Assembly: GCA_910574835.1 (NCBI GenBank)
Contig: CAJTDE010000001.1
Coordinates: forward strand, 124,001 to 188,000
Length of the DNA: 64,000 nucleotides
From: Clostridia bacterium
GTDB lineage: Bacteria > Bacillota > Clostridia > Lachnospirales > Lachnospiraceae
Reading direction: 5' to 3'
A program made the position numbers and the translations under genes. The notes beneath the pieces were generated by a model. That model did no database searches. It worked only from the letters and a program-made list of their open reading frames with translations, and was not told the origin of the DNA. Shown one piece after another: positions 2,824-26,115 of this stretch. Within the stretch, counting starts at the first letter, position 1; each line of letters opens with the position of its first letter.

Positions 2824-2845
2824 TTTTGTTCTTCCTCCTATCTCT

Positions 2846-2880
2846 AGTCGCTGCACGACGGCACTAAAGGGTAAAGTTGC
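2846..2880 (-). repeat. Dispersed intra-operon repeat, copy A
   Basis: Read on the minus strand this is the 35-base element whose core is CCCTTTAGTGCCGTCG followed by TGCAGCGACT. It begins directly after the kinase stop codon (2881-2883) and ends six bases before the AGGAGG site of the receiver gene. Relatives lie at 24949, 25067 and 26087. The hairpin GTCGT-GCA-GCGAC has a C-to-T change relative to the other copies that still allows a G-U pair in RNA. Confidence 0.85.
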
Positions 2881-5724
2881 TTAGCCGCACTTTTCAAGTA
2901 TTTCCAGAAGCCGGCCTAACAGCTCTTCCGCATTGTCATCCTCATATAACCGCAGCTGCTCCCGTATCTGCCGCAGGTACTCCTCCGTGTCCTTCGGCAG
3001 TTCATGAAGCAGCAATGTCTCCACTCTGTCAGCGCACTCCTGAGAACGAAAATGCTTCAGCTCTTCTAAAGCGGCTGCCGTCTGCGCCCTCAATTCCTGT
3101 ATGTCCGGGCAGGGAAGCTTTTCCTTCTTTGAGTGTTCCTCTTTGCGCCATTCCAGAAACTGCCCGATATGAGCCAGAAGAGTTTCATATTCCGCCAGCA
3201 AAAGAGGAAACTTCTCAGTGATTAATTCCCGGTCCCCCTGTGCGGCGGCATTTTCCTGCTCACGGGCCATAGCGGAGACCTCCATAGCGCCGATATTGGC
3301 CGATGCGCTCTTTAGTCCGTGGACCTCTATCTGATAACGCAGCATATCCGAATCCACAAGCTCGCGCAGAAGCTCCGTCTTGCGTTTGCCGTCTATGCAG
3401 TAAAGCTCCAGAAGATCGGCAAAGCCTTCGTTGTCGCCGGAGTAATATTGCATTGCGGCCTTCATGTCAATCCCATCGATCTGAAATGCCGTCGGATCAA
3501 GGGGTTTGACTTCCTCCTCGATTCCGTCCGTCTGCCTGTATTTTTCAGGAACCCACCGCAGCAGGGTATTGTTCAGTTCTCTTCGGTCAAGGGGCTTGGC
3601 AATAAAATCCTGGAAGCCGCATGCCAGGAAATGTTCCCGCATACCTTCCATAGCATTAGCAGTCAGAGCGATCATAACAGGAGTGGTCCCGTTTTCCCCG
3701 CAGTCTCTTCGAATGATCTCCGCCGCCTCGATACCGTCCATACCGGGCATCATATGATCCATAAAAATAATATCAAACCGAACATCACGCACCAGATCCA
3801 CAGCCTCCGGTCCGCTTGCGGCCTCGGTGAGATCAAAGGCATAATTTTTCAGAAAGCCTCTTGCCACCTTGCGGTTAATGACATTATCATCCACAATAAG
3901 AACCTTCACACCGGGAGCCGTAAAGCTGTCCGTAATTTTCTGCTCCTCCTGGGGAAGCTCCGGCATCTGTGAAACCGGGGAGGCGTCTACGATTTTCTGA
4001 GGGATCATAATCGTAACGGTCGTCCCTTTGCCATAGGTACTTTCTACCTCAATGGTGCCCTCCATCAGTTCCACAAGATACTTCACAATGGCAAGCCCCA
4101 GTCCGGTGCCCTCCGCATTTCGGTTCCGCTTGGAGTCCACCTGCCGGAAATCCTCGAAAATCTTGCCGAGATCCTCCTCCCGGATGCCGCAGCCGGTATC
4201 CTCCACATAGAAAATAAGCATCTCTTCGTCCGCGGTCCTTCCGGGTTTTCCGGTAATATATGCGCGCACATATCCTTTGTTCGTAAACTTGACGGCGTTG
4301 CTGAGAATATTGATTAAAATCTGTTTGATTCTGCCGTCGTCGCCGTTGTAGCGGCAGGGAATCGTTTTGTCGCACTCGTATTTGAGGATCAAGCCCCGCT
4401 GGGAAGCGGCCATATCCATCATGCCCATGATCTCGTCGGTCAAAACCTTTATGTAGTAATCCACATACACCAGTTCCATTTTGCCGGCCTCAACCTTGGA
4501 GAGATCCAAAATATCATTGATGATTGCCAGCAGGTTTTTAGCCGCGGACTGCACATCCTTAGCATGAGCATAGATCTCGGTATCTCCGCATTCCTCCATT
4601 ATAATATCATTCAGTCCGATAATGGCGTTCATGGGCGTCCGTATTTCATGGGACATATTGGCAAGAAATTCACTTTTTGCAATGCTGGCCTTCTCCGCCT
4701 GACGCCGGACACGCTTGATCTCATTGATATAGGCTTTTATATCGGTCATATCCAGAATCAAAATAACGCAGCCCTGTATCTTGCCGTTTTCATCTATAAT
4801 ATGCTTGCTGTGGCTTTCGTAGTGCTGCTCATTGATGGAAAAGCTCTGGGGAATGTCCTCGTTGAGCATCTCTTCCCGAAATCCCTCTACGACACGGATA
4901 TTTTCCCCCAGCTTATGGAAGGGCAGATGGGTAAAGATATTGGCCGCAGCTCTGTTATAGCTGACAAGCCGGTCGTGGTCGTCCAGCGCAATGACGCCGT
5001 CGCCCAGACTTTCCAGCACCTTTTCCGCTGCCAGATGACGGAAGTCATAATTACGGCGGCTCCAAACCACAATGACCACCAGGGACATTGAGATAGCCAG
5101 TGTTACCGGCGTGAGATCGAATACCACCACCAATTTAAACACATAAGCTATCAGCATAATGACAGGCAGGGTAGAGATTCCCAGTATGGTCCAATATTGA
5201 TGGTTGACCTGCCGATCCGAACGCTCGCGGATAGCCTTCACCAGTGTATAGATGCAGAGGGTATAAGGAATGATAATACGGCTGAACAGAAAAAATACAT
5301 ACAGCGGGCCGTAAGTGATGCTGACATGATAAAATCCATTGGCATCCGCTAACCACTGAACATCCTGGTAGAAAAGACCGTTCCAGTTAAAAAAGACCGA
5401 GGGCAGAGTAAAAAAGCTGACGGCTCCCACCGCTCTTAAAAATGTTTTCGGCGGCGCAATATAACAATAGATGTAGATAAACCAACAATAACACAGCGGC
5501 ACAAAGGTGGAGCCTACGTTTTCCACAGTCACCGCTGTTACGGCGGCCTCCACCGTAGGAGCGGTCAGCTCCAGCAGATAGCCGATGTTCTGGACCATCG
5601 TTCCGCACATAATGAGGATCAGCAGCTTCTGCTCTTTGGCGCCTTCTCCGTTGAGCAGAAGAAGCAGTGCGATAATCGTCAGGCATATACCGAAACATTC
5701 CAATAGAATAACGAAATTTACCAT
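2881..5724 (-). CDS. Hybrid sensor histidine kinase (7TM-PAS-HisKA-HATPase-REC-HPt)
   Basis: A 947-residue membrane kinase. About seven hydrophobic helices fill residues 1-225 (7TM-type sensor), followed by a PAS region (about 235-335), a HisKA domain with phospho-His in SHEIRTPMNAI (His about 359), an HATPase with DTGCG (about 509) and GTGLG (about 539), a receiver with Asp in FMDHMMPGMDG (about 656) and a C-terminal HPt domain with HGLKSAS (His about 802). All four phosphorelay stations are therefore present. It heads a leftward operon with two lone receivers and a CheX-like protein. The start at 5724 has GGAAGG four bases upstream; the frame is open to an ATG at 5820, which has no ribosome site. 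The signal sensed is unknown. Confidence 0.9.
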   Translation of the reverse strand: MVNFVILLECFGICLTIIALLLLLNGEGAKEQKLLILIMCGTMVQNIGYLLELTAPTVEAAVTAVTVENVGSTFVPLCYCWFIYIYCYIAPPKTFLRAVGAVSFFTLPSVFFNWNGLFYQDVQWLADANGFYHVSITYGPLYVFFLFSRIIIPYTLCIYTLVKAIRERSDRQVNHQYWTILGISTLPVIMLIAYVFKLVVVFDLTPVTLAISMSLVVIVVWSRRNYDFRHLAAEKVLESLGDGVIALDDHDRLVSYNRAAANIFTHLPFHKLGENIRVVEGFREEMLNEDIPQSFSINEQHYESHSKHIIDENGKIQGCVILILDMTDIKAYINEIKRVRRQAEKASIAKSEFLANMSHEIRTPMNAIIGLNDIIMEECGDTEIYAHAKDVQSAAKNLLAIINDILDLSKVEAGKMELVYVDYYIKVLTDEIMGMMDMAASQRGLILKYECDKTIPCRYNGDDGRIKQILINILSNAVKFTNKGYVRAYITGKPGRTADEEMLIFYVEDTGCGIREEDLGKIFEDFRQVDSKRNRNAEGTGLGLAIVKYLVELMEGTIEVESTYGKGTTVTIMIPQKIVDASPVSQMPELPQEEQKITDSFTAPGVKVLIVDDNVINRKVARGFLKNYAFDLTEAASGPEAVDLVRDVRFDIIFMDHMMPGMDGIEAAEIIRRDCGENGTTPVMIALTANAMEGMREHFLACGFQDFIAKPLDRRELNNTLLRWVPEKYRQTDGIEEEVKPLDPTAFQIDGIDMKAAMQYYSGDNEGFADLLELYCIDGKRKTELLRELVDSDMLRYQIEVHGLKSASANIGAMEVSAMAREQENAAAQGDRELITEKFPLLLAEYETLLAHIGQFLEWRKEEHSKKEKLPCPDIQELRAQTAAALEELKHFRSQECADRVETLLLHELPKDTEEYLRQIREQLRLYEDDNAEELLGRLLEILEKCG

Positions 5725-5830
5725 ATTACCTTCCCGCGCGTCTGCGGCTTTATCGGCCGACATAATGGCTTTTTTATTTATTTCCATTGGCAGCGGCCGA
5801 ATGCCCGAATCCCATGACATACGGCAGATA

Positions 5831-5884
5831 CCGCAGGATATATGACGCTAAAAATACAATATTACAATTTTCCTGCGGTGTCAA
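5831..5884 (-). promoter_or_regulatory. Promoter of the phosphorelay operon with flanking inverted repeat
   Basis: On the minus strand TTGACA (5884-5879) and TATTGT (5861-5856) are separated by 17 bases, a good sigma-A promoter pointing at the kinase gene. An inverted repeat, CCGCAGGA (5831-5838) and TCCTGCGG (5871-5878), brackets the -10 box and could be an operator or a hairpin in the leader. Confidence 0.65.
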
Positions 5885-5942
5885 GAAATAGTGTAATAAC
5901 AGAAAACAGGCTTAAACCAGTTGATTTTTCCGGTAGGAAGGG

Positions 5943-6161
5943 ATGAACGCCGCAGAGAAGCTTCTGGATGTATCGCATCTGATGAAGGGAGGCGTACATG
6001 AAAAAATAATTATTAACAAAATCGGCCTAAAGCCCCTTATGCTTGGAAGTATCCTCTGCTTTTTTCTCATCGCCCTTTCCCGTTTCTTTGTTATGGGGCT
6101 TCCGATTTTATTGGCGGTGATCGGCGCTTTTGCATACGGATCTATAAAATGTAAAATATAG
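5943..6161 (+). CDS. Small hydrophobic protein of unknown function
   Basis: A 72-residue ORF with a charged N-terminal third and one or two membrane helices (about residues 33-49 and 50-67). It resembles no family I recognise. GGAAGGG lies directly before the ATG, closer than is ideal, and a second GGGAGG at 5988-5993 leads into a three-codon reading frame, so translation of this region is doubtful. It lies between the kinase promoter and glgC. It may be a real small membrane protein, a relic, or chance. Confidence 0.35.
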   Translation: MNAAEKLLDVSHLMKGGVHEKIIINKIGLKPLMLGSILCFFLIALSRFFVMGLPILLAVIGAFAYGSIKCKI

Positions 6162-6244
6162 ACAAAAAGAGGTTCCGCAAATGCCGAAAAGTTTATTTTT
6201 TGGATAGAAAAAAGCTTTTAAAGCATATTTCTTTTGATAAACTA

Positions 6245-6293
6245 TACCAAATTTTGCCGTTTTGTAGTATAATCTCAAAAGAGAGTACTCTCT
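6245..6293 (+). promoter_or_regulatory. Promoter region of glgC with 14-bp palindrome
   Basis: A perfect TATAAT lies at 6268-6273 with no good -35 box at 16-18 bases. The perfect palindrome AGAGAGTACTCTCT occupies 6280-6293, just where transcription would begin. A weak -35 with an operator over the start point suggests regulated expression. The regulator is not identifiable here. Confidence 0.5.
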
Positions 6294-6318
6294 GAAACAG
6301 AAAAAGGGGGAAATTTTT

Positions 6319-7524
6319 ATGGCAAAAGAAATGATTGCAATGCTCCTTGCCGGCGGCCAGGGCTCACGCCTGTATGCTCTGACAGAGAAGCTTGCAAAAC
6401 CTGCGGTTCCTTTTGGCGGAAAATACCGCATCATCGACTTTCCACTGTCCAACTGTGTTAATTCGGGAATAGACACGGTGGGCATCTTAACCCAGTATCA
6501 GCCTTTGGTACTGAATGAGTACATCGGCAACGGACAGCCCTGGGATCTGGACCGTCTCCACGGAGGCGTCCATGTGCTTCCGCCTTATCAGAAGTCCAGT
6601 GGTTCCGACTGGTACAAGGGAACGGCAAACGCGATCTACCAGAATATTTCATTTATTGAGCGGTATGATCCCAAGTATGTCATTATCCTTTCCGGCGACC
6701 AGATCTGCAAGCAGGACTACAGCGATTTCCTGCGGTTCCATAAGGAAAAGGATGCGGAGTTCAGCGTGGCGGTTATGGAAGTTCCCTGGGAGGAGGCTTC
6801 CCGTTTCGGCCTGATGGTGGCGGACGAGGATGATAAGATTACGGAATTTCAGGAGAAGCCGAAGAATCCCAAGTCTAATCTGGCTTCTATGGGCATCTAT
6901 ATCTTCAACTGGGATATTCTGCGCAAATATCTGGAGGAGGATGAAGCCAATCCGGAATCCGAAAATGATTTTGGAAATAATATCATTCCCAATCTGCTTC
7001 GCGACGGCCGCAGAATGTATGCGTATCATTTCAGCGGCTACTGGAAGGATGTGGGAACCATTTCTTCCCTCTGGGAAGCCAATATGGAGGTACTGGACCC
7101 GGAGCACAGCGGTATCAACCTTTTTGATTCCGATTGGAAGATCTACAGCCGCAACAGCGGTATGACCGGCCACAAGATCTGTCCGGGCGCTGAGGTGGAA
7201 AATGCCATGATTACGGACGGCTGCCGGATCAAGGGTACGGTGAAGCACTCCATCCTCTTCGCCGGTGTCAAGGTAGAGGAAGGGGCGATTGTGGAGGATG
7301 CGGTTGTGATGGGCGGAACCCTCATTAAGTCGGGCGCCGTTGTAAAGCACTGCATTGTAGCTGAAAATGTAACCATCGGTGAAAATGCCGTTGTAGGCGC
7401 TATGCCTTCCGGCGATGAGAGCGGCGTTGCTACGATTGGTGCAGGCGTTACCGTGGGGGACGGGGCCAAGGTTGGTCCAAAAGCTATGGTAAGTAAAAAT
7501 GTGGAAGGCGGTGAAGAGGTATGA
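6319..7524 (+). CDS. glgC: Glucose-1-phosphate adenylyltransferase, catalytic subunit
   Basis: This 401-residue enzyme makes ADP-glucose and pyrophosphate from ATP and glucose-1-phosphate, the committed step of bacterial glycogen synthesis. The nucleotidyltransferase signature [20 protein letters not shown] is intact at residues 10-29, the active-site region [10 protein letters not shown] lies near residue 128 and the glucose-1-phosphate loop [10 protein letters not shown] near residue 178. The last 110 residues form hexapeptide repeats of a left-handed beta-helix. Its stop overlaps the glgD start (ATGA), so the two subunits are translationally coupled. GGGGGAAA precedes the ATG. Confidence 0.96.
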
Positions 7525-8663
7525 TGAATGCAAATAAAAGTGCTCTCGGCATTATTTTCCCAAACAGTCACGACGCGCTCGTTCCGGAGCTGGTGAATGT
7601 GCGGCTGATGGCTTCCATTCCCTTTGCCAGCCGTTACCGTCTGATTGATTTTATTTTGTCCAGTATGACAAACTGCGGCATCAACAATGTTTCGCTGATG
7701 GTGCGGAATAATTATCACTCTCTGATGGACCATTTGGGGTCGGGACGTGAGTGGGATCTGGTGCGGAAAAACGGCGGTCTGACGATTTTCCCTCCCTTTG
7801 CGGACAAGACCAACAAGCCCTTTGTGGGACGTGTGGGCGCTCTGGCCGGTATTCTGGAATTTTTGCAGGATCAGAAGGAAGAGTATGTGGTTTTGGCGGA
7901 TACGAATGTTGTGGTGAATTTTGACTTCAAAGCACTGATTGACGCGCATATTTCCACCGGGGCTGACGTCACGATGGCCTACAATGAGCAGGAGATACCG
8001 GAGAGTGTTCTGGAGACCACTTCCAATGATAAGGGATTTTACTATACCTTTGCTCTTCAGGATGGCCGGATTACCAAGATGTATGTAAATTCCAAGGCAA
8101 AGGGCATACAGAATTTTGCTATGGGGATTATGCTGATTCGGCGGGAGCTGCTGATTGATTTGGTCAATACGGCTTATGTCCGGGGAGAGGTATATCTGGA
8201 GCGTGATGTGCTGCTGCATCAGCTTGATCGGCTGAATGTTCAGGGGTATAAGTATGACGGTTATGTGGCGCGTATTTTCGATATGAAGAGCTACTTTGAT
8301 GAGAATATGAAGCTTTTGGATGATTACAACCTGGATGCATTGTTCTCGGAGGCGCCTGTTTATACAAAGATTCGTGACGACAATCCTTCTCGTTACATTG
8401 CGGGAGCCAAGGTAGAGAATATCATGGTTGCGGACGGCTGTATTATCGAAGGTGAAGTGGAGAACAGCGTATTGTTCCGCGGTGTTAAGATTGCCAAGGG
8501 TGCGAAGGTGAAGAACTGTGTTCTGATGCAGGGCACTGTGGTGGAAGCCGGCGCGGATGTGGAGTATGTGATCGCGGACAAGGACGTGACGGTGAGCGCG
8601 GGGAAAGAGCTGAAGGGGACGGATACGTTTCCTGTTTATATCGGGAAGAAGCAGAAGGTGTAG
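7521..8663 (+). CDS. glgD: GlgD, non-catalytic glucose-1-phosphate adenylyltransferase subunit
   Basis: A 380-residue paralogue of GlgC. The N-terminal nucleotide-binding signature is degenerate: where GlgC has a Gly-rich G-G-x-G-x-R-L loop, this protein reads [15 protein letters not shown]. The fold is otherwise conserved ([21 protein letters not shown]-terminal hexapeptide repeats such as [19 protein letters not shown]). This is the usual state of Firmicute GlgD, which associates with GlgC and modulates it. The start overlaps the glgC stop by four bases. A hairpin near 8781-8809 follows. Confidence 0.95.
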
Positions 8664-9002
8664 CAGGGAAGCGGAAGCTATATCCGGCCGGTATTCGGGA
8701 TGCGTGCGGATGTATTTGAATGCATGGCGGGATCGGTGAGACGGGCTGCGGACTTTCGGTGTATATAATGTGTGGAAATAGAGGTGTTGGGCCTGGTGCC
8801 TGATGCCTCTTTTTGAATATATCTTACCGGACGAAGTCTTCCGCACCGCATAAAATGGCAAAAGGGGATATTAAATCTTGGTATTCATGAAGTTCTGCTA
8901 AAAAATGAAAGAATTTAATGATTCTGCTTGATTTTCCAAAGAAAAAGGTGTATTATAATTAAAAATGGAAGAATATGAAAGAAATAAAAAAGGGGTGAAG
9001 GA
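8664..9002 (+). promoter_or_regulatory. Gene-free stretch with terminator and promoter
   Basis: These 339 bases hold a GC-rich tail after glgD, a terminator hairpin (GAGG at 8781, CCTC at 8806-8809, then TTTTT), a motif TATTCATGAAG at 8882-8892 that recurs at 10612-10622, and a promoter TTGATT (8928-8933) with TATTAT (8951-8956) at 17 bases; the overlapping TATAAT at 8954 gives 20. The promoter drives the gene at 9003. Confidence 0.55.
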
Positions 9003-9485
9003 ATGGAATCCACAAGCAGAGTGCTACAGAGAAAGATTATGAATATCATGAATGACGGAGAAAAGCGGGATATCTCGGATATAAAAGAGAGTTTGGCGGT
9101 AAAAGAGGATTTTAAATATGGGGAGGATTATCGGGAAGGTCACCTGGCCGGCGTCCTGCGTGTGCTCGTAACCAATAAAGATCTGGAAAAAGAGGAGCGG
9201 GGAGTGTATCGGTTAAATGAACTGACACACGGGCCGGTTATAGAAGATATACTAAACATGGACATTGATCTTGAGCCTGATAACCGGGGCATGTCATGTC
9301 TGGAGGAAATGAAACAAGAAACTCTTACTGTTTTGGAACGGCAATATCACAGCTTGGTGGGGCGTATGGATGCGGTATCCTTATCTTCCCTGTCGCCTTC
9401 GGATTTTGAGAGTGTAAGGCAGTTGTCGGAATTGAAAGAGGATTTGAAGCAGATTTTGCTGAAATACGGCAGGACATCCGCATAA
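9003..9485 (+). CDS. Hypothetical protein, possible winged-helix N-terminus
   Basis: A 160-residue soluble protein that I do not recognise. Residues 8-70 (KIMNIMNDGEKRDISDIKES through EERGVYRLNE) read like a winged-helix fold, with a helix pair and a final beta-wing ending in VYRLN. Residues 95-158 are acidic and helical, with coiled-coil-like heptads ending in ELKEDLKQILLKYG. It may be a small DNA-associated regulator. GGGGTGAAGG precedes the ATG. The reading frame stays open after its TAA stop (9483-9485) for another 134 codons that encode a membrane protein. Confidence 0.65.
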   Translation: MESTSRVLQRKIMNIMNDGEKRDISDIKESLAVKEDFKYGEDYREGHLAGVLRVLVTNKDLEKEERGVYRLNELTHGPVIEDILNMDIDLEPDNRGMSCLEEMKQETLTVLERQYHSLVGRMDAVSLSSLSPSDFESVRQLSELKEDLKQILLKYGRTSA

Positions 9486-9569
9486 AGGCTGCTACAGGAA
9501 GGCATTGTTTATACTTATTCGGTATCGCTCTGCGCGTCGCTTCTGGCAGAGGATTTCGTAAAGCAGATT

Positions 9570-9890
9570 GTGAATAAGCGAAAGGGGAAAAATCCGGATT
9601 TTGTATTTTACCATGTGATTACTTCGGCTGTAAATATTATCTGGATTTTGATTCTGGTGTTTCTGTGGCTGGGCGGACTGCGCGGCAAGATTTGGCTGCA
9701 GATTGCCTGCGGTGTGATTTCGTCGGTTTTTGCCTTCTATATGTATTGTGTGGGGCAGATGGAGCAGCACAAGGTGATTTTGAAGGATTATGACGATACG
9801 GAATATTTGGACGCGGAGCCGCATCAGATGGATACGGCTAAGGAGGGCGCTCATGCGGAAACTGTGGAGGGGTTGGGAAAATGGGTATGA
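9570..9890 (+). CDS. Small membrane protein, true start uncertain
   Basis: The GTG at 9570 gives 106 residues with two membrane helices (about 15-35 and 39-59) and an acidic C-terminus. The GTG has no ribosome site. The same frame is open back to 9486, and the upstream codons read as good protein (QEGIVYTYSVSLCASLLAED), so the product probably begins earlier. The first stop upstream is the TAA ending the 9003 gene. The options are an unusual start near 9489-9504, where CAGGAAGG could serve, or a nonsense mutation that split one longer gene. The family was not recognised. Confidence 0.5.
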   Translation: MNKRKGKNPDFVFYHVITSAVNIIWILILVFLWLGGLRGKIWLQIACGVISSVFAFYMYCVGQMEQHKVILKDYDDTEYLDAEPHQMDTAKEGAHAETVEGLGKWV

Positions 9891-9905
9891 AAGCGGTGGA
9901 CTGTG

Positions 9906-10502
9906 ATGCTGTATGACAGGGATATTCGGGAGCCGTTGTTTGATTATCTGGAGGAGCGGTACGGTAAGGTTCGGGTGATTGAGGAGAAGCAGATGGGGAG
10001 ATCCCGGGCGGATATTGTGATGGTGCTTCCGGGGGAGCTTGCGGGGATTGAGATTAAGAGTGATGCCGATACTTATGCGAGGCTGGAGCGGCAGGTGAAG
10101 GATTATGATCGGTTTTTTGATCGGAATTATGTGGTGGTGGGGTCTACCCATGCCCTGCATGTCGGGGAGCATGTACCGGAGTATTGGGGGATTATTTCGG
10201 CGGAATGGCTGGATGGGCGCGTGGATTTTTATGTGATTCGGGAGGCGGACCGGAATCCGAAGGTGGAGATGAGGTGTAAGATACGGATTCTTTGGCGGCC
10301 GGAGCTGGCGCATATTCAGGAGATTTGCGGGATGGCAAGGTATGGGGGGAAGAGTAAGGAGTTTGTGAGAGAGCGGATCGTGGAGCGGGTGCCGGAAGAG
10401 ATCTTGAATGGGTTGATTAGTGAGGAGCTGTTTGAGAGGGACTATACGGAGATTGAGGGGAGGATTGAGGAGTTTCGGGGGAGGAGGAGAAAACGGAAGT
10501 GA
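9906..10502 (+). CDS. sce7726-like family protein
   Basis: A 198-residue protein matching what I know of the sce7726 family: RDIREPLFDYLEERYG at the start, then VIEEKQMGRSRADIVMV, GIEIKSDADTYARLERQVKDY, YVVVGSTHA and VPEYWGIISAE. The pattern of a conserved Asp (RADIV), the E-x-K in GIEIKSD and a downstream Lys and Asp resembles a PD-(D/E)xK nuclease core, so DNA cleavage is possible though not shown. The C-terminus is rich in Arg, Glu and Lys. A GTG one codon earlier (9903) is also possible; the ribosome site is weak. It lies 15 bases after the small membrane protein. Confidence 0.7.
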   Translation: MLYDRDIREPLFDYLEERYGKVRVIEEKQMGRSRADIVMVLPGELAGIEIKSDADTYARLERQVKDYDRFFDRNYVVVGSTHALHVGEHVPEYWGIISAEWLDGRVDFYVIREADRNPKVEMRCKIRILWRPELAHIQEICGMARYGGKSKEFVRERIVERVPEEILNGLISEELFERDYTEIEGRIEEFRGRRRKRK

Positions 10503-10605
10503 AAGGGATGGGATATAATGACTTTATTTACTATGAAGGATGTAAATTAGTGATATAGCTTATATAGCGAATAAAATTATAGTATGGTGTGTGAGAAGAA
10601 TAAAA

Positions 10606-10693: not shown

Positions 10694-10726
10694 CAAAAAA
10701 TTGATCATTATATTTTATTTGGCTAA

Positions 10727-19000: not shown

Positions 19001-19035
19001 AGATTTTGATTAATTATTTCTCGATTCGGCATTAA
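16003..19035 (+). CDS. SF1 helicase with WYL-like N-terminus and C-terminal nuclease domain
   Basis: A 1010-residue protein in at least three parts. Residues 8-78 (IFKAIHEGKWLKIEYQN to GSYDRIYI) resemble a WYL ligand-sensing domain. Residues 330-870 form a superfamily 1 (AAA_11/AAA_12-like) helicase: Walker A GPPGTGKTNT (about 347), VIMDEASQCN, GDPQQLNPV, HYRCNEKII, VHAFQGDEKDVV and INVAVSRPRDQL. The last 120 residues carry a PD-(D/E)xK or DUF2726-like nuclease core with GRFDFVV, AIELDGKEH and MQIIRVEN. A signal-gated helicase-nuclease fits phage defence or DNA repair. ATG at 16003 is chosen for the AAAAAGGA site; the frame is open to 15877. Third codon positions are markedly C-rich early in the gene and less so late. 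Confidence 0.82.
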   Translation: MTNTHRNIFKAIHEGKWLKIEYQNVENQITNYWIGIRDLNIAARTLSVDGLHTTKYTLGSYDRIYIDSILSSEIIEGSYCEINEDLVRDIYLHPHKYKSLFDHVANLKILNYLEMCNRMDCVPYYSDFELIRYLDSDSFRDEFYELSDEQFRMIVTYFQQKTEENRPDGRITIQQLAMNILSIHTNKGLYVLAYRRLRLDVKRRVLRPDEDITICTEYTVDGAAESIRRYLDADEYELLEHFEENQERIKDCITHYNRAVLSADDMPYIIGLGMDIALDLRKEYQAILNMYQNDKVPIPIRAFFGDLLNRPVRKKACPITLLNRRINLDQLLAINNAMKYPVAYIQGPPGTGKTNTILNTLLTAFFNEKTVLFTSYNNHPINSVFEKLTELRYHGRNIPFPVLRLGNIDKQKEAVRYLKELYLTTKAVTVYESTLDKRRGDRIQRAKELSGLLGRYEEVLDLRERRETLHRMTEYQSHLKGAIGLLPFQADLQGRQLEMVNRKISGKGQITDEEALKLLDDNEEELYKYLYYTSAKYIQRLDEPKYDELRKILFESEGEEQLKAFSKYLSKTENVRRLQRVFPVMITTCISAHRLGAPEALFDMVIMDEASQCNTAVSLVPIIRGEQLMLVGDPQQLNPVILLDPLVNQRLRKKYNVSDEYDYRENSIYKTFLSCDSVSDEVLLHNHYRCNEKIIEFNNRKYYNSKLNIRSNSREPHPLIYIDVKNAPVDQKNTAPCEVQEIVSYASCHRDKSIGVITPFVNQRKMIEEALKKEGLDHVACGTVHAFQGDEKDVVLFSTAISDSTQAGTYEWLKNNRELINVAVSRPRDQLIVLSDSGNLNRLHQREGSDDLYELVEYVKANGTSQVSRKKANSRALGIKPFSTAMEEAFLANLTHALENIWLSQSRYTVHREVAVSQVFQDNLSHDDLFYSGRFDFVVYERQGSKELPVLAIELDGKEHFEDEIVKERDRKKNAICEAHRMQIIRVENAYARRYHHIKEILINYFSIRH

Positions 19036-19076
19036 CCGAACATAAAACGAGTATACGGATGAATCGCCTGTTATGT

Positions 19077-19105
19077 TTGACGCAGGCCGGTAAATCATGT
19101 ACAAT
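19077..19105 (+). promoter_or_regulatory. Sigma-A promoter of the FAD oxidoreductase gene
   Basis: TTGACG (19077-19082) and TACAAT (19100-19105) are separated by exactly 17 bases, about 70 bases before the start codon at 19175. It shows that the oxidoreductase is a separate transcription unit from the helicase cassette. Confidence 0.75.
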
Positions 19106-19174
19106 AGAAAAATAACTTGGATACAAACCCCAATATCGGCAGATAATAACAGGAAAAAGAAAAAGGAGCTTCAA

Positions 19175-20731
19175 ATGAAGAAAGCAATCATCATCGGCGC
19201 AGGTCCGGCAGGAGTGACGGCAGCCTACGAATTGTTAAAGCAGTCAAAGGAATACGAAGTACTGGTCCTTGAGGAAAGCCAGGAGATAGGCGGAATCTCC
19301 AGAACCGTGCGCTACAACGGCAACCGCATGGATATCGGCGGCCACCGCTTTTTCTCCAAGGACGACCGGGTGACGCGTTGGTGGGACCAGATTATGCCCC
19401 TTCAGGGAAAGCCCTCCTACGATGATAAAGTATTGGGCCGCACCATACCGCTGAAAAAGGGAGGACCGGACCCGGAAAAAGAGGATCAGGTGATGCTGAC
19501 CCGGAACCGGGTATCGCGCATCTATTATAAAAAGAAGTTTTTTGACTACCCGATCAAGCTCAATGCAAAGCTCTTCCTTAACATGGGCTTTGCGGATACG
19601 GTTGTGGCAGGCTGCAGCTATCTGAAAACAGCGGCAGTCAAAAAGCCGGTGGATTCTTTGGAAAACTTTTATATTAACAGCTTCGGCCGAAAGCTCTACT
19701 CCATGTTTTTCGAGGGCTATACGGAAAAGCTCTGGGGCCGTCATCCCCGGGAGATAGCTCCCGACTGGGGCGCACAGCGGACCAAGGGGCTTTCCATCAT
19801 GGGAATCCTGAAGGATAACGTGGTAAAGCTCTTTCCCGGAAAGCAGGACAAGAAGCATGTGCAGACCTCCCTGATCGAAGAATTTAACTATCCCAAATAC
19901 GGTCCCGGCCAGCTCTGGGAGACAGCCGCCGCCGAGGTGGAGCGCATGGGCGGAGAGATTCGAAAAGGCTGTAAGGTGACGAAGATCAACACCGCAGGAA
20001 ACCGCGTAGAGAGCCTTGTGTATCAATGTGACGGCCAGGAAGTGACCGTGGAGGGCGACGTATTTATTTCCTCCATGCCCGTGAAGGATCTGGTGGCAGG
20101 CATGAACGATGTGCCGGAGGATAAGGCGGAGATTGCGGCAGGACTTCCCTACCGTGATTTCGTTACGGTCGGCCTTCTGGTGAAAAAGCTGAATCTGAAA
20201 AATGAGACAAAGCTCAAGACCTTGAACAATATCGTTCCCGACTGCTGGATCTATGTTCAGGACACCGGCGTCAAGCTGGGGCGTATCCAGATTTTTAATA
20301 ACTGGTCCCCCTATATGGTGGCAAAGCCGGAGAAAACCGTCTGGATTGGTCTGGAATATTTCTGTAGCGAGGGTGACAAGTACTGGAAGCTCAGCGAAGA
20401 AAAATGGGTAAAATACGCTACGGCCGAGCTTTTAAAAATGGGTGTGATTTCCAGTGAAAGCGATGTGCTTGATTCTCACAGAGAGCGGGTAAAAAAGGCT
20501 TATCCGGCGTACTTTGATACCTATGAGCATATGGATGATTTGATTGATTATCTGAACGGCTTTGGCAACCTCTATTGCGTAGGCCGCAACGGTCAGCACC
20601 GCTACAACAACATGGATCACTCGATGGCAACCTCCTTTGAGACTGTGGGGAATATCTTAAGCGGCAGGGAGGATAAGAAGAATATCTGGAGCGTGAATAC
20701 GGAGAAGGAGTATCACGAGGAGAAAAAGTAA
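19175..20731 (+). CDS. NAD(P)/FAD-dependent oxidoreductase (amine oxidase/UDP-galactopyranose mutase-like)
   Basis: A 518-residue flavoprotein. The N-terminal dinucleotide-binding fold is [17 protein letters not shown] followed by [13 protein letters not shown] and [14 protein letters not shown], the second FAD contact common to protoporphyrinogen oxidase and UDP-galactopyranose mutase relatives. Near the C-terminus [19 protein letters not shown] closes the flavin site. Homologues are often found with cell-surface polysaccharide genes; none adjoins here, so the substrate is open. The ATG at 19175 has AAGGAG 6 bases upstream; the frame runs back to 19097 without a better site. A strong terminator follows. 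Confidence 0.85.
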
Positions 20732-20790
20732 AAAAGTCGTTACTGACATTGCGGAGTGAACAGTAACAAAAAGTCTTGGAAAGAAGCAAG

Positions 20791-20825
20791 CAGGCATGTC
20801 TGATGAGAGGCATGCCTGTTTTTTT
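20791..20825 (+). terminator. Intrinsic terminator
   Basis: CAGGCATG (20791-20798) pairs with CATGCCTG (20811-20818), followed by seven T. It ends the oxidoreductase transcript. An upstream inverted repeat GTTACTG (20739-20745) and CAGTAAC (20761-20767) lies just after the stop codon. Confidence 0.85.
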
Positions 20826-20935
20826 GATCCTACAGCCTGCGTCAGAAATGCCTGCCTCCATTGTGCTGACGTCAGCTGCGGGAGGAAATGATACATCCTG
20901 AAATAATGTCACTTACTAAGTGCCAGAACCTCATA

Positions 20936-20965
20936 TCGACTTCGCTAAGTGGGCAATCTTATAAT
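20936..20965 (+). promoter_or_regulatory. Likely promoter of the PTS operon
   Basis: TATAAT lies at 20960-20965 with TCGACT (20936-20941) 18 bases upstream as a fair -35 box. The regulator gene starts 39 bases later. No obvious antiterminator stem-loop was found before the IIA gene, so regulation is more likely at this promoter by the DNA-binding regulator. Confidence 0.45.
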
Positions 20966-21003
20966 AAAAGAGAAGACGGCGGTATGTTGAGAAAGGAAAA
21001 GCG

Positions 21004-22878
21004 ATGCTGAAAAAGAAAAGGAAGCTGGTGAAAATCCTTTCCGAATCAACAGAACAATTGTGGAATTCGGAACAGTTGGCCGGGCTGCTTCATATAAGCC
21101 AGCGGACAGTACTGCGGTATATCAAGGAGCTGAAAGAAGAGGAAGAGAGGGGCGGCTTCAAGCTTCACACACAAAAAGGGAAAGGGTACCGGTTTGAAAT
21201 TGCCGACAAGAAGCGCCTGGGGCAATACATGGCGGAAAATAAAGAAGTACGGCACATTTTGTTCAAGATCCTTTTGGAAAAGATTTGCAAGCTGGATGAT
21301 TTGGCGGAGATGCTTCATTATAGCCGCTCCGGAATGGCAAGTCTTATTGAACAGGTAACAGAGGAGGCGGAATCTCACGGCTTAAAGCTTTTGGGAAAAC
21401 CCTATGTGGGGTTTGTAGTTCATGGAAGCGAGATCCATATTCGGAATTACTTATATGAGTTGATAAAGGAAATGGATTGGGAGCAAGTGGAAGCTGTATT
21501 GAAGTTTCCCAAGAAGCAAAGCGAAGGGGTGAAAAGCTTTGTGGATGACAGACTCAAGAAAAAGGGGATCGTTAAAAATACAGGGAGAGAGGCATTTTTC
21601 CTCAAGTATTTGGGAATCCAGCTTCGCAGGATTCAGCTTGGCGAGACGATTTGTATTGGATTTTTTGCAAATCTGGGAAATGAAGGACATTTTCAGGACG
21701 ATCTGGGTGTTGCCGAATCACTGCTGTATATCTGCGGCATAGACAGGCAGTCGACGGATAATTATGAGACCGAACGAATCTATCTGGCATTGATTTATCG
21801 GCAGGCATTTTGGCAGAACGGGATTGTGGACAAGGTAGATGAGCGGGATTTGGGATTTTATCAGAAGCTGGTAGAGACAGGGCTTTTGAAGATCCGCAAT
21901 GACTATCACATGAATCTCTTAGAGGATGAGACCTTGGTAAATGGCTTGATCCTTCATGTGGCATCCAGCTATCGAAAATACCTTCTTGGAATGGAAGAAG
22001 AAAATTATTTTCATAATAATATGCTGGAAACTTACCCAACTGCCTATTATTTTGCCGTGGAGCTTGCCGAAGTCATATCCAATCAGATTGGATTGCCTTT
22101 AAGTAAGTATGAGATAAGCTTTCTTGGAATGCATTTTGCATCCTTTCTGGAAAGAAACCTGCAAAATCACGCCTGGAAGGCGGCAATCATCTGCAAGAGC
22201 GGATTGGGAACCGCACAGCTGCTTCAAAGCCGACTGAAAAATTTATACGGCCATCTGGAGATCACAGGGCTGTATTCTCTTGACGAGGGAGAGGTCCGGT
22301 GTCAGGAAGCGGATCTTTTGATCACCACAGTTCCTTTGACAGAGGAGGAGGCTTCCGGAAAAGCGTGGATTCAGGTTTCTCCTCTGCTGACTTTGGAGGA
22401 ACAGATTTCTCTGGAAAATATGTTTAAGAGGCTGGGAAGAAGGAAGCGCTGGCAGGAGAATGGAGTCCCGAAGTATTTTTGCTTCTTAAGCGGAAAAATG
22501 AGAAAGAGCGATATTCTAGAACAGATTTGTGACGCTTATGTAGAACAGGGGAAAATCTCTCCGGAAGAAAAAGCTGGAATTTTGGAGCGGGAATCTTTGG
22601 TATCTACGGAGATTTTGGATGGCGTCGCTATGCCGCATGGACTGATTCAAAAGGAAAGCTTTTTGACCTTTATCTTACTGGAACATCCTGTTATGTGGGG
22701 AAGGACCAGGGTGCGTCTGGTGATTCTGGGCTGTTTTCATCGGGGAGATGAGAGGATGAAGCAGGAATTGGAGCATATATTTCAAATGCTTTTAAATGAA
22801 GAGAGAAAGGAAGAACTGCTGTTTTGTAAAACCATATCACAGTTGGAGGAGAAGATAAGTGAATACTACAAAAAATAG
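21004..22878 (+). CDS. BglG/LicR-type PTS-controlled transcriptional regulator
   Basis: A 624-residue modular regulator. An N-terminal HTH (NSEQLAGLLHISQRTVLRYI, about 20-39) is followed by a Mga-like HTH region, PRD domains (about 180-390), an EIIB-like domain with AIICKSGLGTAQLLQ (Cys about 400) and a C-terminal EIIA-like domain with GVAMPHGL (His about 545). Such proteins (MtlR, LicR, ManR) activate PTS operons and are tuned by HPr and EIIB phosphorylation at the PRD histidines. The gene overlaps the IIA gene by 20 bases, making that operon its obvious target. AAAGGAA precedes the ATG. Confidence 0.92.
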   Translation: MLKKKRKLVKILSESTEQLWNSEQLAGLLHISQRTVLRYIKELKEEEERGGFKLHTQKGKGYRFEIADKKRLGQYMAENKEVRHILFKILLEKICKLDDLAEMLHYSRSGMASLIEQVTEEAESHGLKLLGKPYVGFVVHGSEIHIRNYLYELIKEMDWEQVEAVLKFPKKQSEGVKSFVDDRLKKKGIVKNTGREAFFLKYLGIQLRRIQLGETICIGFFANLGNEGHFQDDLGVAESLLYICGIDRQSTDNYETERIYLALIYRQAFWQNGIVDKVDERDLGFYQKLVETGLLKIRNDYHMNLLEDETLVNGLILHVASSYRKYLLGMEEENYFHNNMLETYPTAYYFAVELAEVISNQIGLPLSKYEISFLGMHFASFLERNLQNHAWKAAIICKSGLGTAQLLQSRLKNLYGHLEITGLYSLDEGEVRCQEADLLITTVPLTEEEASGKAWIQVSPLLTLEEQISLENMFKRLGRRKRWQENGVPKYFCFLSGKMRKSDILEQICDAYVEQGKISPEEKAGILERESLVSTEILDGVAMPHGLIQKESFLTFILLEHPVMWGRTRVRLVILGCFHRGDERMKQELEHIFQMLLNEERKEELLFCKTISQLEEKISEYYKK

Positions 22879-23317
22879 TACATTGCGGAAAATGCTTACG
22901 AGAAAGGTAGTAAGGCTTGGGGTAGAAGGACTTAAGACGCCCCAGGAAGTGATTGCATATGGCGGCAGTCTTTTGGAACAGGCGGGAAAGGTAAACAGGC
23001 AATATATAACAGACATGATTTCGGCCTATGAATCTTTGGGTCCCTATATTGTAATGGCTCCCGGTTTGGCAATGCCCCATGCGAGGCCGGGCGGAAATGT
23101 AGCGGAAAACGGCATAAGCTTTCTTCAATTAAAAACTCCGGTTGCATTTCAGCATTCTTTCAATGACCCGGTGAAGATTGTTATTACATTGGCCGGCGCT
23201 TCCGACGACGGACACATTGACTTATTGCAGGACTTGAGTTCTTTTCTTGGTGGGGAGGGCGTGATAGAACAGCTGTCTCAGATTACCAGCTATGAAGAGC
23301 TTATGAAAATTATTTAA
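22859..23317 (+). CDS. PTS EIIA component, mannitol/ascorbate type
   Basis: A 152-residue phosphocarrier that passes phosphate from HPr to the cognate EIIB. The active His is in APGLAMPHARPGG (about residue 76). The GTG at 22859 is used: GGAGGAG sits 7 bases upstream, and the gene overlaps the end of the regulator gene. With the IIB and IIC genes that follow it makes a complete Enzyme II. Confidence 0.93.
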   Translation: MNTTKNSTLRKMLTRKVVRLGVEGLKTPQEVIAYGGSLLEQAGKVNRQYITDMISAYESLGPYIVMAPGLAMPHARPGGNVAENGISFLQLKTPVAFQHSFNDPVKIVITLAGASDDGHIDLLQDLSSFLGGEGVIEQLSQITSYEELMKII

Positions 23318-23332
23318 AGTAGGAGGGATAAA

Positions 23333-23608
23333 ATGCGGATTCTGACAGTATGCGGGATGGGATTCGGAACAAGCCTGATGCTTCTTATGACCATAAAGGA
23401 GATTGGCAAAAAGTATGGGGCAGCTATTGAGGGAGAGGCCGTAGATCTTGGCTCGTACAAGGGAAAGCCCTGTGATCTGATTGCTGCTTCCGGAGAGATA
23501 GCAAAACAGATTCAGACAGATGTTCCGGTTCTGGCAATTAAAAATCTGCTCAACAAGGCGGACATCGAAGAGCAGTTAAAGCCTTTTTTGGAAAAGAAGG
23601 GCGAATGA
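23333..23608 (+). CDS. PTS EIIB component, ascorbate/galactitol type
   Basis: A 91-residue EIIB. The phospho-Cys lies in the P-loop-like LTVCGMGFGTSLML (Cys about residue 6). Its size and motif match SgaB/UlaB-type proteins. AGGAGG lies 10 bases before the ATG. It receives phosphate from the adjacent EIIA and gives it to the incoming substrate bound by IIC. Confidence 0.93.
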   Translation: MRILTVCGMGFGTSLMLLMTIKEIGKKYGAAIEGEAVDLGSYKGKPCDLIAASGEIAKQIQTDVPVLAIKNLLNKADIEEQLKPFLEKKGE

Positions 23609-23663
23609 GGGTATTGGGGAAACATAGGACAAAAATGAGAAAGACAAATAGGAGGGAAAGGTT

Positions 23664-24941
23664 ATGGTAAATTTTCTTGTAAAGTTTTTAAGTGAGCCTA
23701 CGATTGTTATGGGATTGGTGGCGATGATTGGTTTGCTTGCAATGAGAAACAATGCATCTGCGGTAATTCAGGGAACCATGAAAACTATTTTGGGTTTTTT
23801 GATTCTCTCAGCCGGTTCCAATTTGATTTGTACCGCTCTTGTGCCCTTCAGCACCATGTTCAACTCTGCATTTGGAGTTTCAGGGGTTGTTCCCGAGGAT
23901 AATGCGCTGGTGGCTGCGGTACAGACAGTTCTCGGCTTTGAGACGCCGATGATTATGCTGTTTTCCTTTGTGATCAATATTGTACTGGCGCGGGTCACAC
24001 CTTTTAAGTACATTTTCCTGACAGGACATATGATGTTTTCTTTTGCCGGAACTATGGCAATTGTTTTGGATCAAATGGGGATCAACGGATGGACGGCAAT
24101 TGCTGTCGGTTCGGTGATTCAGGGGATCTGTATGGTATTATTTCCCGCCATTGCCCAGCCCTATACGAAAAAAATTCTCGGCACGGATCAGGTGGCTTTT
24201 GGGTTCTGGGGAAGCTCTCTGATTGTATTCAGCGGATGGGTCGGAAAATTAGTCGGAAAGAAAGACAGAAACGAAGAGGAAGATACCTGGGAGAAGGTAC
24301 ATGTATCGGAAGGGCTGAACTTTTTAAAGGATATGTCGATCCTTATGAGCATTGTTATGATTGTAGTTTATCTAATTACCGCATTTGTAGCCGGCCCGGC
24401 CGTAGTGGGAGAACTTTCCGGGGGACAGAATATGGTGGTCTATACATTGATCCAGGCAATGACTTTTGTGGCAGGTGTTTTAGTTCTGCTCCAGGGCGTT
24501 CGGATGTTCCTGGGTGAGATCATTCCGGCCTTCAAAGGGATCAGTGAAAAAATCGTACCAGGAGCCAGACCTGCGCTGGATGTACCGATTTTCTATGCCA
24601 GCGGTCCCGTAGCTACAACAGTAGGCTTCCTTTGTGCTATGGTAGGCGGAATCTTGGCAACCTTGATCTCGACAGCTATGGGAGTAGTGGTGCTTCCCGG
24701 TGTCATCGGACTCTTCTTTATGGGAGGCGCTGCCGGTGTCTTCGGAGACAAATTAGGCGGAAAACGCGGATGTGTGGCTGCCTCATTCCTTTTGGGATTT
24801 TTGTTTAGCATCATTGTTGCTTTGGCTTATCCGCTGATTGACGTAAGCAGATACGGAATTGAAGGACTGTGGTTTGCATCCACAGATGCTATCATAGTAT
24901 CTGTTTTAATGCGCTTGGGCGGAATGATTTTTGGGTTATAG
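23664..24941 (+). CDS. PTS EIIC permease, UlaA/SgaT (ascorbate) family
   Basis: A 425-residue integral membrane protein with about ten helices. Family signatures are FLILSAGSNLI near the N-terminus, the segment FKYIFLTGHMMFSFAGT and the C-terminal GGAAGVFGDKLGGKRG. UlaA proteins transport L-ascorbate and related lactone-like or acidic sugars with phosphorylation by IIB. The substrate here is not fixed: UlaG, UlaE, UlaF or UlaD-type enzymes are absent, and a phosphotriesterase-family protein and a KDPG-type aldolase follow instead. AGGAGG precedes the ATG. Confidence 0.9.
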   Translation: MVNFLVKFLSEPTIVMGLVAMIGLLAMRNNASAVIQGTMKTILGFLILSAGSNLICTALVPFSTMFNSAFGVSGVVPEDNALVAAVQTVLGFETPMIMLFSFVINIVLARVTPFKYIFLTGHMMFSFAGTMAIVLDQMGINGWTAIAVGSVIQGICMVLFPAIAQPYTKKILGTDQVAFGFWGSSLIVFSGWVGKLVGKKDRNEEEDTWEKVHVSEGLNFLKDMSILMSIVMIVVYLITAFVAGPAVVGELSGGQNMVVYTLIQAMTFVAGVLVLLQGVRMFLGEIIPAFKGISEKIVPGARPALDVPIFYASGPVATTVGFLCAMVGGILATLISTAMGVVVLPGVIGLFFMGGAAGVFGDKLGGKRGCVAASFLLGFLFSIIVALAYPLIDVSRYGIEGLWFASTDAIIVSVLMRLGGMIFGL

Positions 24942-24948
24942 GATATAT

Positions 24949-24996
24949 AGGTGCATCGAAGTGACTTTACCCTTTAGTGCCGTCGCGCAGCGACTT
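24949..24996 (+). repeat. Dispersed intra-operon repeat, copy B
   Basis: A 48-base sequence identical to copy C at 25067-25114. It starts with AGGTGCATCGAAGTGAC and contains CCCTTTAGTGCCGTCGCGCA. It begins eight bases after the IIC stop. It is followed by GTAAAGTC-GCAAA-GATGCAC (24998-25017), a partial inverted copy of its own left end that allows an outer stem of 8 + 7 bp. Confidence 0.9.
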
Positions 24997-25017
24997 AGTA
25001 AAGTCGCAAAGATGCAC

Positions 25018-25061
25018 GAGAGGAACTTTTATGAGTGTTCTTTCGAATAAAAGTTCCTCTC
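25018..25061 (+). promoter_or_regulatory. Perfect 15-bp stem-loop inside the PTS operon
   Basis: GAGAGGAACTTTTAT (25018-25032) is perfectly complementary to ATAAAAGTTCCTCTC (25047-25061), with a 14-base loop. No U-run follows, so it looks more like a processing, stabilising or attenuating hairpin than a terminator. It sits exactly between repeat copies B and C. A 29-codon reading frame (25031-25120) begins inside it and ends in copy C. Confidence 0.75.
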
Positions 25062-25066
25062 ATTAC

Positions 25067-25114
25067 AGGTGCATCGAAGTGACTTTACCCTTTAGTGCCG
25101 TCGCGCAGCGACTT
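25067..25114 (+). repeat. Dispersed intra-operon repeat, copy C
   Basis: Identical over 48 bases to copy B. It ends four bases before the AGGAGG site of the phosphotriesterase-family gene. It contains the small hairpin GTCGC-GCA-GCGAC. Confidence 0.9.
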
Positions 25115-25131
25115 TTATAGGAGGAAAAATA

Positions 25132-26046
25132 ATGGATTATGTGCGTACCGTATTGGGAGATATTAAGGGGGAGGATATGGGTTTTACCTATCCTCACGAA
25201 CATTTATATGCTGTCCCGCCGGCTTGTCAGAAGGATCGTGATTTGGAGCTGAGCAGCTATGAGAACAGTGTAAAGGAACTGATGAATTTTAAAGAGGTTG
25301 GCGGCCGTACACTGGTGGAGGCGTCCACCTTGGACTATGGACGGAATCTGGGTCTGCTGAAGAAAATGGCAGAAGAAACCGGGATAAATATCATAGCCAC
25401 TACCGGATTTAACAAGCATATCTATTACCCGGAATGGGTTCAGGAAAAGAGTGCGGAGGAGATTGCGGATATCCTTGCAGGGGATATTATGGATGGAGAA
25501 AAGGAAACAAAGGTTCGTGCCGGTTTTATAAAAATCGGGACCTACTATAATATGATTCACCCATTGGAAAAAAAGACGGCCATTGCGGCAGCCATAGCGC
25601 AGAAAAAATGCAAAGCCCCCATTTGGGGACATACGGAGGCCGGCACAATGGGAATGGAGATATTGGATCTGCTGGAACAAGAACATGTAGATTTCTCAAC
25701 CGTGGCGCTTGGTCATCTGGATCGAAACGCTGATGAATACTATCTTTTGAAACTTGCGGACAGAGGAATTTACATTCAGTTTGACGGACCGGGTAAGGTG
25801 AAATACTATCCGGACAGCGTAAGAGTGCGGCTGATTAAAAGTCTGATTGCTCATGGACATGCGGATCAGCTTTTGATTTCCGGAGATATGGGAAGAGCCT
25901 CTTATCTGGAAGGCTATGGGGGAGGCCCCGGTTTTCGTTTTATTAAGACGAAATTTATCCCGCGCTTGCTGGAGGAAGGGGTTACGGAGGAACAGATTGA
26001 CAAAATTTTTATTGAGAACCCCAGACGCTGGCTGGCAGTATTTTAA
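25132..26046 (+). CDS. Phosphotriesterase-family hydrolase, probable phospho-sugar lactonase
   Basis: A 304-residue TIM-barrel metallohydrolase with all binuclear metal ligands visible: HEH in YPHEHLYA (about 22-24), the carboxylated Lys in GFIKIGTYY (about 143), His in WGHTEAG (about 176), His in LGHLDRNAD (about 204) and Asp in ISGDMGRASY (about 262). Members of this COG1735 family next to PTS genes include lactonases that open phosphorylated sugar lactones. Its position after an ascorbate-type PTS fits the same role: hydrolysing the phosphorylated lactone made during import. It is read from AGGAGG directly after repeat copy C. Confidence 0.85.
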   Translation: MDYVRTVLGDIKGEDMGFTYPHEHLYAVPPACQKDRDLELSSYENSVKELMNFKEVGGRTLVEASTLDYGRNLGLLKKMAEETGINIIATTGFNKHIYYPEWVQEKSAEEIADILAGDIMDGEKETKVRAGFIKIGTYYNMIHPLEKKTAIAAAIAQKKCKAPIWGHTEAGTMGMEILDLLEQEHVDFSTVALGHLDRNADEYYLLKLADRGIYIQFDGPGKVKYYPDSVRVRLIKSLIAHGHADQLLISGDMGRASYLEGYGGGPGFRFIKTKFIPRLLEEGVTEEQIDKIFIENPRRWLAVF

Positions 26047-26086
26047 AGAAGCAATAAAAAATAAGACGGCAATACCCTGTGCGAAT

Positions 26087-26115
26087 TTGCCCTTTAGTGC
26101 TGTCGCGCAGCGACT
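26087..26115 (+). repeat. Dispersed intra-operon repeat, copy D (shorter)
   Basis: This copy keeps the core CCCTTTAGTGCTGTCGCGCA followed by GCGACT but differs at two positions and has diverged upstream of position 26087. It lies between the phosphotriesterase-family and aldolase genes and ends seven bases before the AGGAGA site of the aldolase gene. Confidence 0.8.

Follow-up and report, generated by a model that had tools for sequence, protein, structure and literature searches.

Four repeat copies and the genes beside them

The stretch of DNA under study (hereafter the window) comprises 64,000 nucleotides of contig CAJTDE010000001.1 from a Clostridia bacterium of the family Lachnospiraceae, and contains four copies, A to D, of a short repeat whose family we name R1. 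Comparison with related genomes makes it rather probable that R1 is a short non-autonomous mobile element which has the Shine-Dalgarno (SD) site as its insertion target. The R1 cores are found at 2846-2871 (minus strand) and at 24970-24995, 25088-25113 and 26090-26115 (plus strand), and since the core pattern had no match in 100 shuffles of the window the four copies do not result from chance. This confirms the number and places of the copies given in an original prediction made from the letters of the window, which was also correct in describing GTCGC-GCA-GCGAC as the core hairpin, with a G-U pair in copy A, as well as in placing an AGGAGG-type site at 5-7 nt and a start codon 17-22 nt past copies A, C and D; AGGAG(G) is found at 6, 5 and 7 nt and the start codon 22, 18 and 17 nt past the core, respectively. 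An intrinsic terminator at these three copies was rejected, the SD lying within 5-7 nt and no T-run being seen. Copy A is found at a hybrid histidine kinase/response regulator pair and copies B, C and D in a PTS permease / PTE-family / KDPG-aldolase gene cluster.

Copy A (2840..2891, minus strand) is a 52-bp insertion, a short form without the big hairpin of longer copies. It lies between a hybrid histidine kinase gene upstream (2881..5820, minus strand, to the end of the open reading frame, ORF; PF02518, PF00512, PF00072, PF16927) and a response regulator gene downstream (2407..2823, minus strand; PF00072, E=2.5e-25), and its insertion target, the SD site AGGAGG at 2834..2839 (minus strand), is the same hexamer that follows the junction in both empty orthologous sites. 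These belong to the relatives G002 and G005 and read CTTGAAA^AGGAGG, the occupied site reading CTTGAAA, then the insertion from AGTGCGG to AGAGAT, then AGGAGG; a decayed copy is present at this site in G007. In the empty allele of G002 the upstream frame, according to our reading of the alignment, extends into the following start and stops at ATGA, and the insertion gives TAA, the last codons and the TAA stop of the kinase ORF being supplied by copy A. Judged from these sequences, two genes that had overlapped were set apart by the insertion of copy A, which brought a new stop codon.

The cluster around the remaining copies encodes a PTS EIIC-GAT permease, a PTE-family protein, a KDPG-type aldolase and a creatininase-family protein. 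Copy B (24950..24997, plus strand), originally taken as a placement of its own, is instead the upstream unit of a tandem pair with copy C, at a spacing of 118 bp. Copy C (24998..25119, plus strand) comprises the big hairpin (GTAAAGTCGC..GCGACTTTAC), the core and the ATA end, and is followed by the SD site AGGAGG at 25119..25124 (plus strand), the A at 25119 being common to the element end, and by a start codon at 25132. Copy D (26081..26122, plus strand) is short at its 5' side, beginning at position 131 of the 166 of the consensus, an approximate left edge because there is no empty ortholog to compare. Behind it lie the SD site AGGAG (26123..26127, plus strand) and the ORF of the KDPG aldolase (26133-26753, plus strand, with its start codon at 26133), recognised in a profile search of the window proteins.

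Genome-wide family, position and empty sites

When the core search was extended to the whole genome of origin (G000; 5.01 Mb, 133 contigs) and to related Lachnospiraceae, as had originally been suggested, the supposed family of four turned out to hold 200 copies in G000 (98 + 102, at up to three mismatches), with none for a reversed-pattern control. Among the 100 matches listed of these 200, 90 have no mismatch to the 26-nt pattern, which has two degenerate positions, and this suggests recent spread. R1 was found in nine of 61 genomes (G000 and 60 relatives), which are eight of the 16 members of the genus and G028 from another genus, with 200 copies in G000, 126 in G007, 125 in G002, 116 in G012, 97 in G005, 20 in G004, 13 in G013, 2 in G006 and 18 in G028. 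It is not a wide family trait, being present at up to two mismatches in two of 397 genomes of the Lachnospiraceae, G000 and G028, in a set which had just two members of the genus. Named carriers among the matches listed include Acetatifactor muris DSM 23669, Bacterium 1XD21-13, Lachnospiraceae bacterium IMSAGC_003 and many metagenome-assembled genomes; many of the named carriers we take to be mouse-gut isolates. Carriage by phages was rejected, with no exact match in viral contigs, and so was identity with a described Rfam RNA, as at the copies no match reaches the gathering score and those below it (such as mir-3202 at 25011-25075) are the only ones. Elsewhere in the window, a GA-cis RNA (RF02987) at 45942-46008 (plus strand) scores 35.8 bits, barely over its gathering score of 34.7.

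The position of R1 was analysed in about 848 kb of G000, which include nearly the whole of contig C1; most stretches of C2 and C5-C8 were picked for their copies, so that densities are inflated. This sample contains 64 matches at up to seven mismatches and 61 at up to five, 48 of the latter being single copies or the last of an array. In 45 of these 48 an SD-like motif, a start codon and an ORF of at least 50 codons are found at 4-8 nt, an arrangement shown by 0.9% of 197,147 random positions, and this excludes a passive repeat inserted at random places. The distance from core to GGAG is 7 nt in 27 copies and 6 nt in 13, and ATA precedes GGAG in 34 of the 45. A second set, of named genomes (93 loci among the matches listed, picked by the core alone, several records being the same genomes as in our set), gave 100 last copies, 73 with SD, start codon and ORF, 16 followed by the left end of a second repeat family, R2, and 11 with other sequence; 35 more copies are not last in their array and six lie at an edge. 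The arrangement was also seen in five of five G028 copies and in six of seven last copies at loci of the relatives. The fixed orientation and SD-adjacent position proposed from the window are thus upheld in larger samples (45 of 48 and 73 of 100). The statement that all copies lie inside operons fails beyond the window, as the 48 copies divide into 33 with a codirectional upstream neighbour, ten with a divergent one and five within an ORF call.

For the genes behind 18 copies of G000, starts were located in six relatives (75 matches, 70 of the 75 places being read), and an automatic comparison of occupied with empty places returned 18 pairs with a large gap. Nine pairs, at eight loci, are readable to the base: 67433 and 220326 (C2), 10355 (C8), 214814, 329507, 305635 and 252330 (C1), and copy A twice. 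In all nine the insertion ends at the SD, as (A)^GGAG, and the SD and start codon are kept; with such exact ends at the SD, the choice of target accounts for position and orientation. The cleanest locus is C1:329507, where the ortholog in G007, 97.6% identical, is empty and G000 is 173 bp longer; at 10355 and 39041 the gene of G007 is just 81-82% identical, so that these differences may not be sister-lineage events. The longest repeat on both sides of the junction which is common to all base-exact pairs is AG, and four loci would allow a duplication of AATAG, the host too reading AATAG there. Another difference from G007 (its contig C12) is found at 5942-6131 of the window, about 190 bp between blocks of 98-99% identity, of which only 6097-6131 aligns.

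Target choice is also apparent from the frequency of occupied sites. The 848 kb contain 539 SD-led ORFs of 150 codons or more, with R1 upstream of 40 and R2 upstream of 18; for C1 only, which is copy-richer than the genome average, these values are 18 and 6 of 264. ATA precedes GGAG in 44 of 58 SD-led ORFs with an element versus 15 of 481 without, a count that reflects the element's own end and, for R2, in part the motif used in the search. Outside ORF calls, R1 is directly upstream of 32 of 175 SD-like AGGAGR sites versus none of 110 other intergenic ones, and inside ORF calls of 11 of 234 SD-like sites versus 1 of 1176 other coding ones. The chance that all 32 would fall at SD-like sites is, by our own arithmetic, (175/285)^32 or about 2e-7; selection against other insertions could contribute to this preference. 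At the left junction the host side reads ATA in 14 of the 22 copies with a full left end (own count), in comparison with the 15 of 481 element-free SD-led ORFs that have ATA before GGAG; many of these 14 copies lie behind an older one. It may be that ATAGGAGG is preferred as a target and restored by every insertion; alternatively, some of the nesting came about by tandem duplication.

Element anatomy and a second family at the same target

A full R1 of about 170 bp reads GTCCRGC..big hairpin..CCCTTTAGTGCYGTCGCGCAGCGACTnnnATA and is followed by the GGAGG of the host. Its order is that of a stem P1 (GTCCRGC-..-GCYGGAC), the big hairpin, CCCTTTAGTGC, the core hairpin and nnnATA. Terminal inverted repeats were not found by eye, the left GTCCRGCTAAG and the right ..GCGACTnnnATA not being complementary. 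The 3' end is constant and the 5' ends vary across copies: the full left end, L1, is present in 101 of 233 distinct pooled copies and in 22 of the 48 last copies of G000, the others being short by 5-20 nt (three), beginning at 21-44 (one), at the base of the big hairpin (nine), inside it (two) or in its 3' arm (11). Copy A, counted in the last group, has GTGCGGCTAAG, which resembles L1, so that short forms may include deletions. At C1:421266/421295 of G000 and at locus L088 there are core-only tandem repeats of 29 bp (CCCTTTAGYGC..GACTTTA), the usual unit being 117-173 bp.

The changes that preserve pairing, as originally proposed, are upheld by covarying stems. In 67 full-length copies two pairs vary as UA 32/CG 27 and as UA 40/CG 14 (with CA 7), raw counts in which kinship is ignored, and over 233 copies the outer core pair varies as GC 204/AT 19 (with AC 7 and GT 3). 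Stem P1 is left out of the RNAalifold consensus; in a lenient test at least six of its seven pairs form in 57 of 67 copies, one P1 pair being formed in just 71%.

R2, the other repeat found at several orthologous genes in relatives, ends in ..TTACGGAACTGGAATA directly before GGAGG (also ..CGGAACTGGAATA^GGAGG) and has the same target as R1. At up to two mismatches it counts 131 copies in G002, 102 in G012, 93 in G000, 87 in G007, 73 in G005, 45 in G006, 39 in G013, 38 in G028 and 1 in G004, and none in the other 52 genomes, so that R1 and R2 are confined to the same nine of 61; in the window it was not found at up to three mismatches. Among 16 R1 sites having an ortholog outside G007, ten carry R2 in at least one relative, as judged by eye, the automatic label being loose (three mismatches in 12, some false). 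At 305635 and 220326 in G000, R2 tails have R1 behind them, and R1 copies are also found behind older R1 and R2 copies, adjoining the SD. The outer stem of R2 is rewritten from copy to copy yet still paired: 44 of 75 distinct tails are paired at 12 or more of 15 positions, with 35 different stems, in comparison with a mean of 8.4 of 75 for shuffled letters (largest 12) and of 19.6 when the stem of another copy is used (largest 27), and 26 of the 75 are paired at 14 or more, with 20 different stems (for example L222, L152 and L252). In the isolate ABMPRH_256_1 (L176, around 5650-5850, and L174, around 2150), an L1 left end is followed by another GC-rich hairpin and by an end of the R2 type, and in L176 this hybrid sits before AGGAGG.

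Mobility, host function and significance

The effect of R1 on its host genes was evaluated in 13 copies shared by G000 and G007, copy A included. The differences amount to 7 of 337 positions in the core, 26 of 1231 in the 100 nt before it, which for short copies include host flank, and 61 of 2750 upstream, and at the three codon positions to 10, 5 and 52 of 1547 each. The element (33 of 1568, 2.1%) differs from third codon positions (52 of 1547, 3.4%) at p ~0.03 (chi-square, own arithmetic), at most a weak constraint, and at C1:18213 G007 is without 69 nt of the big hairpin at a common site. In respect to SD accessibility, the unpaired probability is 0.517 for 40 R1 sites versus 0.463 for 150 sampled others (p = 0.19), and masking of the SD by the hairpin was rejected on this absence of a difference. 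Shared-copy divergence and SD accessibility speak against strong selection on host regulation, effects at single genes being possible. In our reading, R1 lies where it does through its choice of target and not, so far as the tests go, through conserved translation control, which is a possible side effect. From the original view of an RNA-level element, the orientation, the SD position and the pairing stand; the position is explained by the insertion target, and the tests of function were negative or weak.

We consider it improbable that R1 is a selected module of RNA-level control or insulation, in which hairpins before the SD tune translation, stability or coupling and are kept by the host. 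Such a module would account for the sense position beside the SD, for the covarying stems, for R1 and R2 recurring at the same orthologous genes and for shared copies diverging somewhat less than third codon positions. However, at empty orthologs the gene is retained behind a plain SD, the divergence of 33/1568 against 52/1547 goes along with the hairpin loss in G007, accessibility is unchanged and R1 occurs in just half of the genus members; the covariation, moreover, is across mobile copies and may serve mobility. Old inheritance, with loss of the element from relatives in place of gain, agrees with some sites being occupied by R1 in G000, G007 and G002 or G005. It is nonetheless most improbable, given the clean difference at C1:329507, the 90 of 200 copies without mismatch, which suggest recent spread, and the fact that loss restoring a plain SD at eight loci is less simple than insertion.

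In the mobile-element reading, R1 would insert just before the SD and leave it intact, so that copies come to lie nearly all in the same place and orientation. The R1 end with GGAGG would rebuild the favoured target ATA+GGAGG, and this would explain nesting. Copying may begin on the SD side and break off before completion, in the manner of target-primed copying of RNA, a single-strand DNA mechanism being also possible; the stems would be kept by selection for mobility, not for regulation of each host gene. The host would receive a structured leader of about 50-170 nt, and overlapping genes would be separated, as at copy A.

Several observations weigh against this reading. Transposition was not observed directly, three of the 48 copies of G000 (C5:10965, C5:85531 and C6:183272) have no SD, and the other nine of the 18 pairs, with ambiguous or diverged flanks, give no base-exact junction. 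Near-identical array units may be local tandem duplications, which weakens the argument from the ATA target, and genes that bear R1 in G000 have R2 in a relative more often than expected from copy numbers, unless R2 attracts R1 or the sites are otherwise favoured. A mobilising enzyme did not emerge either. Y1_Tnp (PF01797) has no match in the carriers G004, G006 and G007 and is present in the R1-free G001, G008 and G015; RVT_1 is found in ten of the 16 genus genomes, with no match in the carriers G012 (116 copies, 92% complete) and G006; and IS110 exceeds the cut-off in ten of 16 but not in the carriers G006 and G012. None of the three tracks R1 copies in these genomes, whose incompleteness makes such absences weak evidence. 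An autonomous copy with an L1 end was not found among 30 fetched of 59 L1-ended copies, these 30 being short, R1 following within 170 nt and in one case at 256 nt. Below the cut-off, IS110-profile matches (E ~1e-5 to 1e-4) occur in 13 of the 16 genus genomes within ORFs of 797-1504 codons (for example G000:C18:14743-14976), and are perhaps the RNase-H-fold domain of another large protein.

As to how R1 would move, two mechanisms were compared. One may tentatively entertain a DNA element whose mover is a recombinase, single-strand (HUH/Y1) or of another kind, with A^GGAGG / CCTCC^T as its recognition site, the 5' variants having come from palindromes deleted later: no target duplication longer than AG is common to all loci, the ends carry hairpins, the target is sequence-specific on one side, and at C1:18213 most of the big hairpin is missing in G007. 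On the other hand, Y1_Tnp does not track copy number, the end hairpin has no conserved foot motif where it faces the SD (core and ATA are separated by nnn), and core-only copies require a second explanation. Somewhat unlikely is an element copied from RNA, in which nicked CCTCC ends would prime the reverse transcription of an mRNA with element and SD (target-primed copying), so that 3' ends come out fixed and 5' ends truncated; it conforms to the constant 3' end and the clustering of 5' heterogeneity around the big hairpin, to chimaeras of R1, R2 and the L1 end, and to the preference for the SD over other noncoding AGGAGR, but not to the lack of an RVT_1 match in G012 or G006, nor to the full left end in 22 of 48 copies. 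That R1, R2 and the L1-R2 hybrids are moved by one machinery which reads the SD, possibly in mRNA and not DNA, with the translation start signal as integration site, is doubtful.

Several known systems share traits with R1. REP/BIME sequences with RAYT (Y1) transposases are extragenic palindromes in arrays, with a hairpin near one end and a conserved tetranucleotide at the hairpin foot. R1 likewise consists of palindromes in arrays with a hairpin near one end, but it is sense-oriented at the SD, its SD-side bases between core and ATA are variable and form no foot motif, and Y1_Tnp was not found in three carrier genomes, which are incomplete. ERIC, BOX and RUP resemble it as dispersed hairpin elements in transcribed intergenic regions, and we know of no docking of these in one orientation at SD sites. 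With retroelements lacking long terminal repeats (non-LTR), R1 has in common a 3' end fixed at the target, 5' truncation and chimaeras; unlike them, it has about 170 bp and no recognised ORF, and RVT_1 does not track its copies. Bacterial miniature inverted-repeat transposable elements (MITEs; e.g. Chunjie and Correia elements) are short, high-copy and mobile, and lie between genes and inside operons (PMC10969869); in the searched portion of that text the terms 'ribosome', 'Shine' and 'start codon' do not occur. R1 is comparable to MITEs in being short, in its 200 copies and in its mobility, as indicated by empty sites at eight loci, and differs in lacking terminal inverted repeats and in having the SD as target and a constant 3' with variable 5' ends; of a possible target duplication, no more than AG is common to all loci. 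A limited search of open-licence papers found no SD-targeted repeat. Among bacterial interspersed mobile repeats R1 stands out by insertion directed to the SD, by a fixed 3' end with variable 5' ends, and by a partner family whose stems are rewritten.

These results also call for caution, as a fixed place beside SD sites is not in itself proof of regulation. Should the enzyme of R1 be found, it would offer a tool to write sequence immediately before start signals. R1 is a natural experiment in adding structured leaders and in uncoupling overlapping genes, and a mobile element using the ribosome-binding site as its target could spread beside genes without breaking them.

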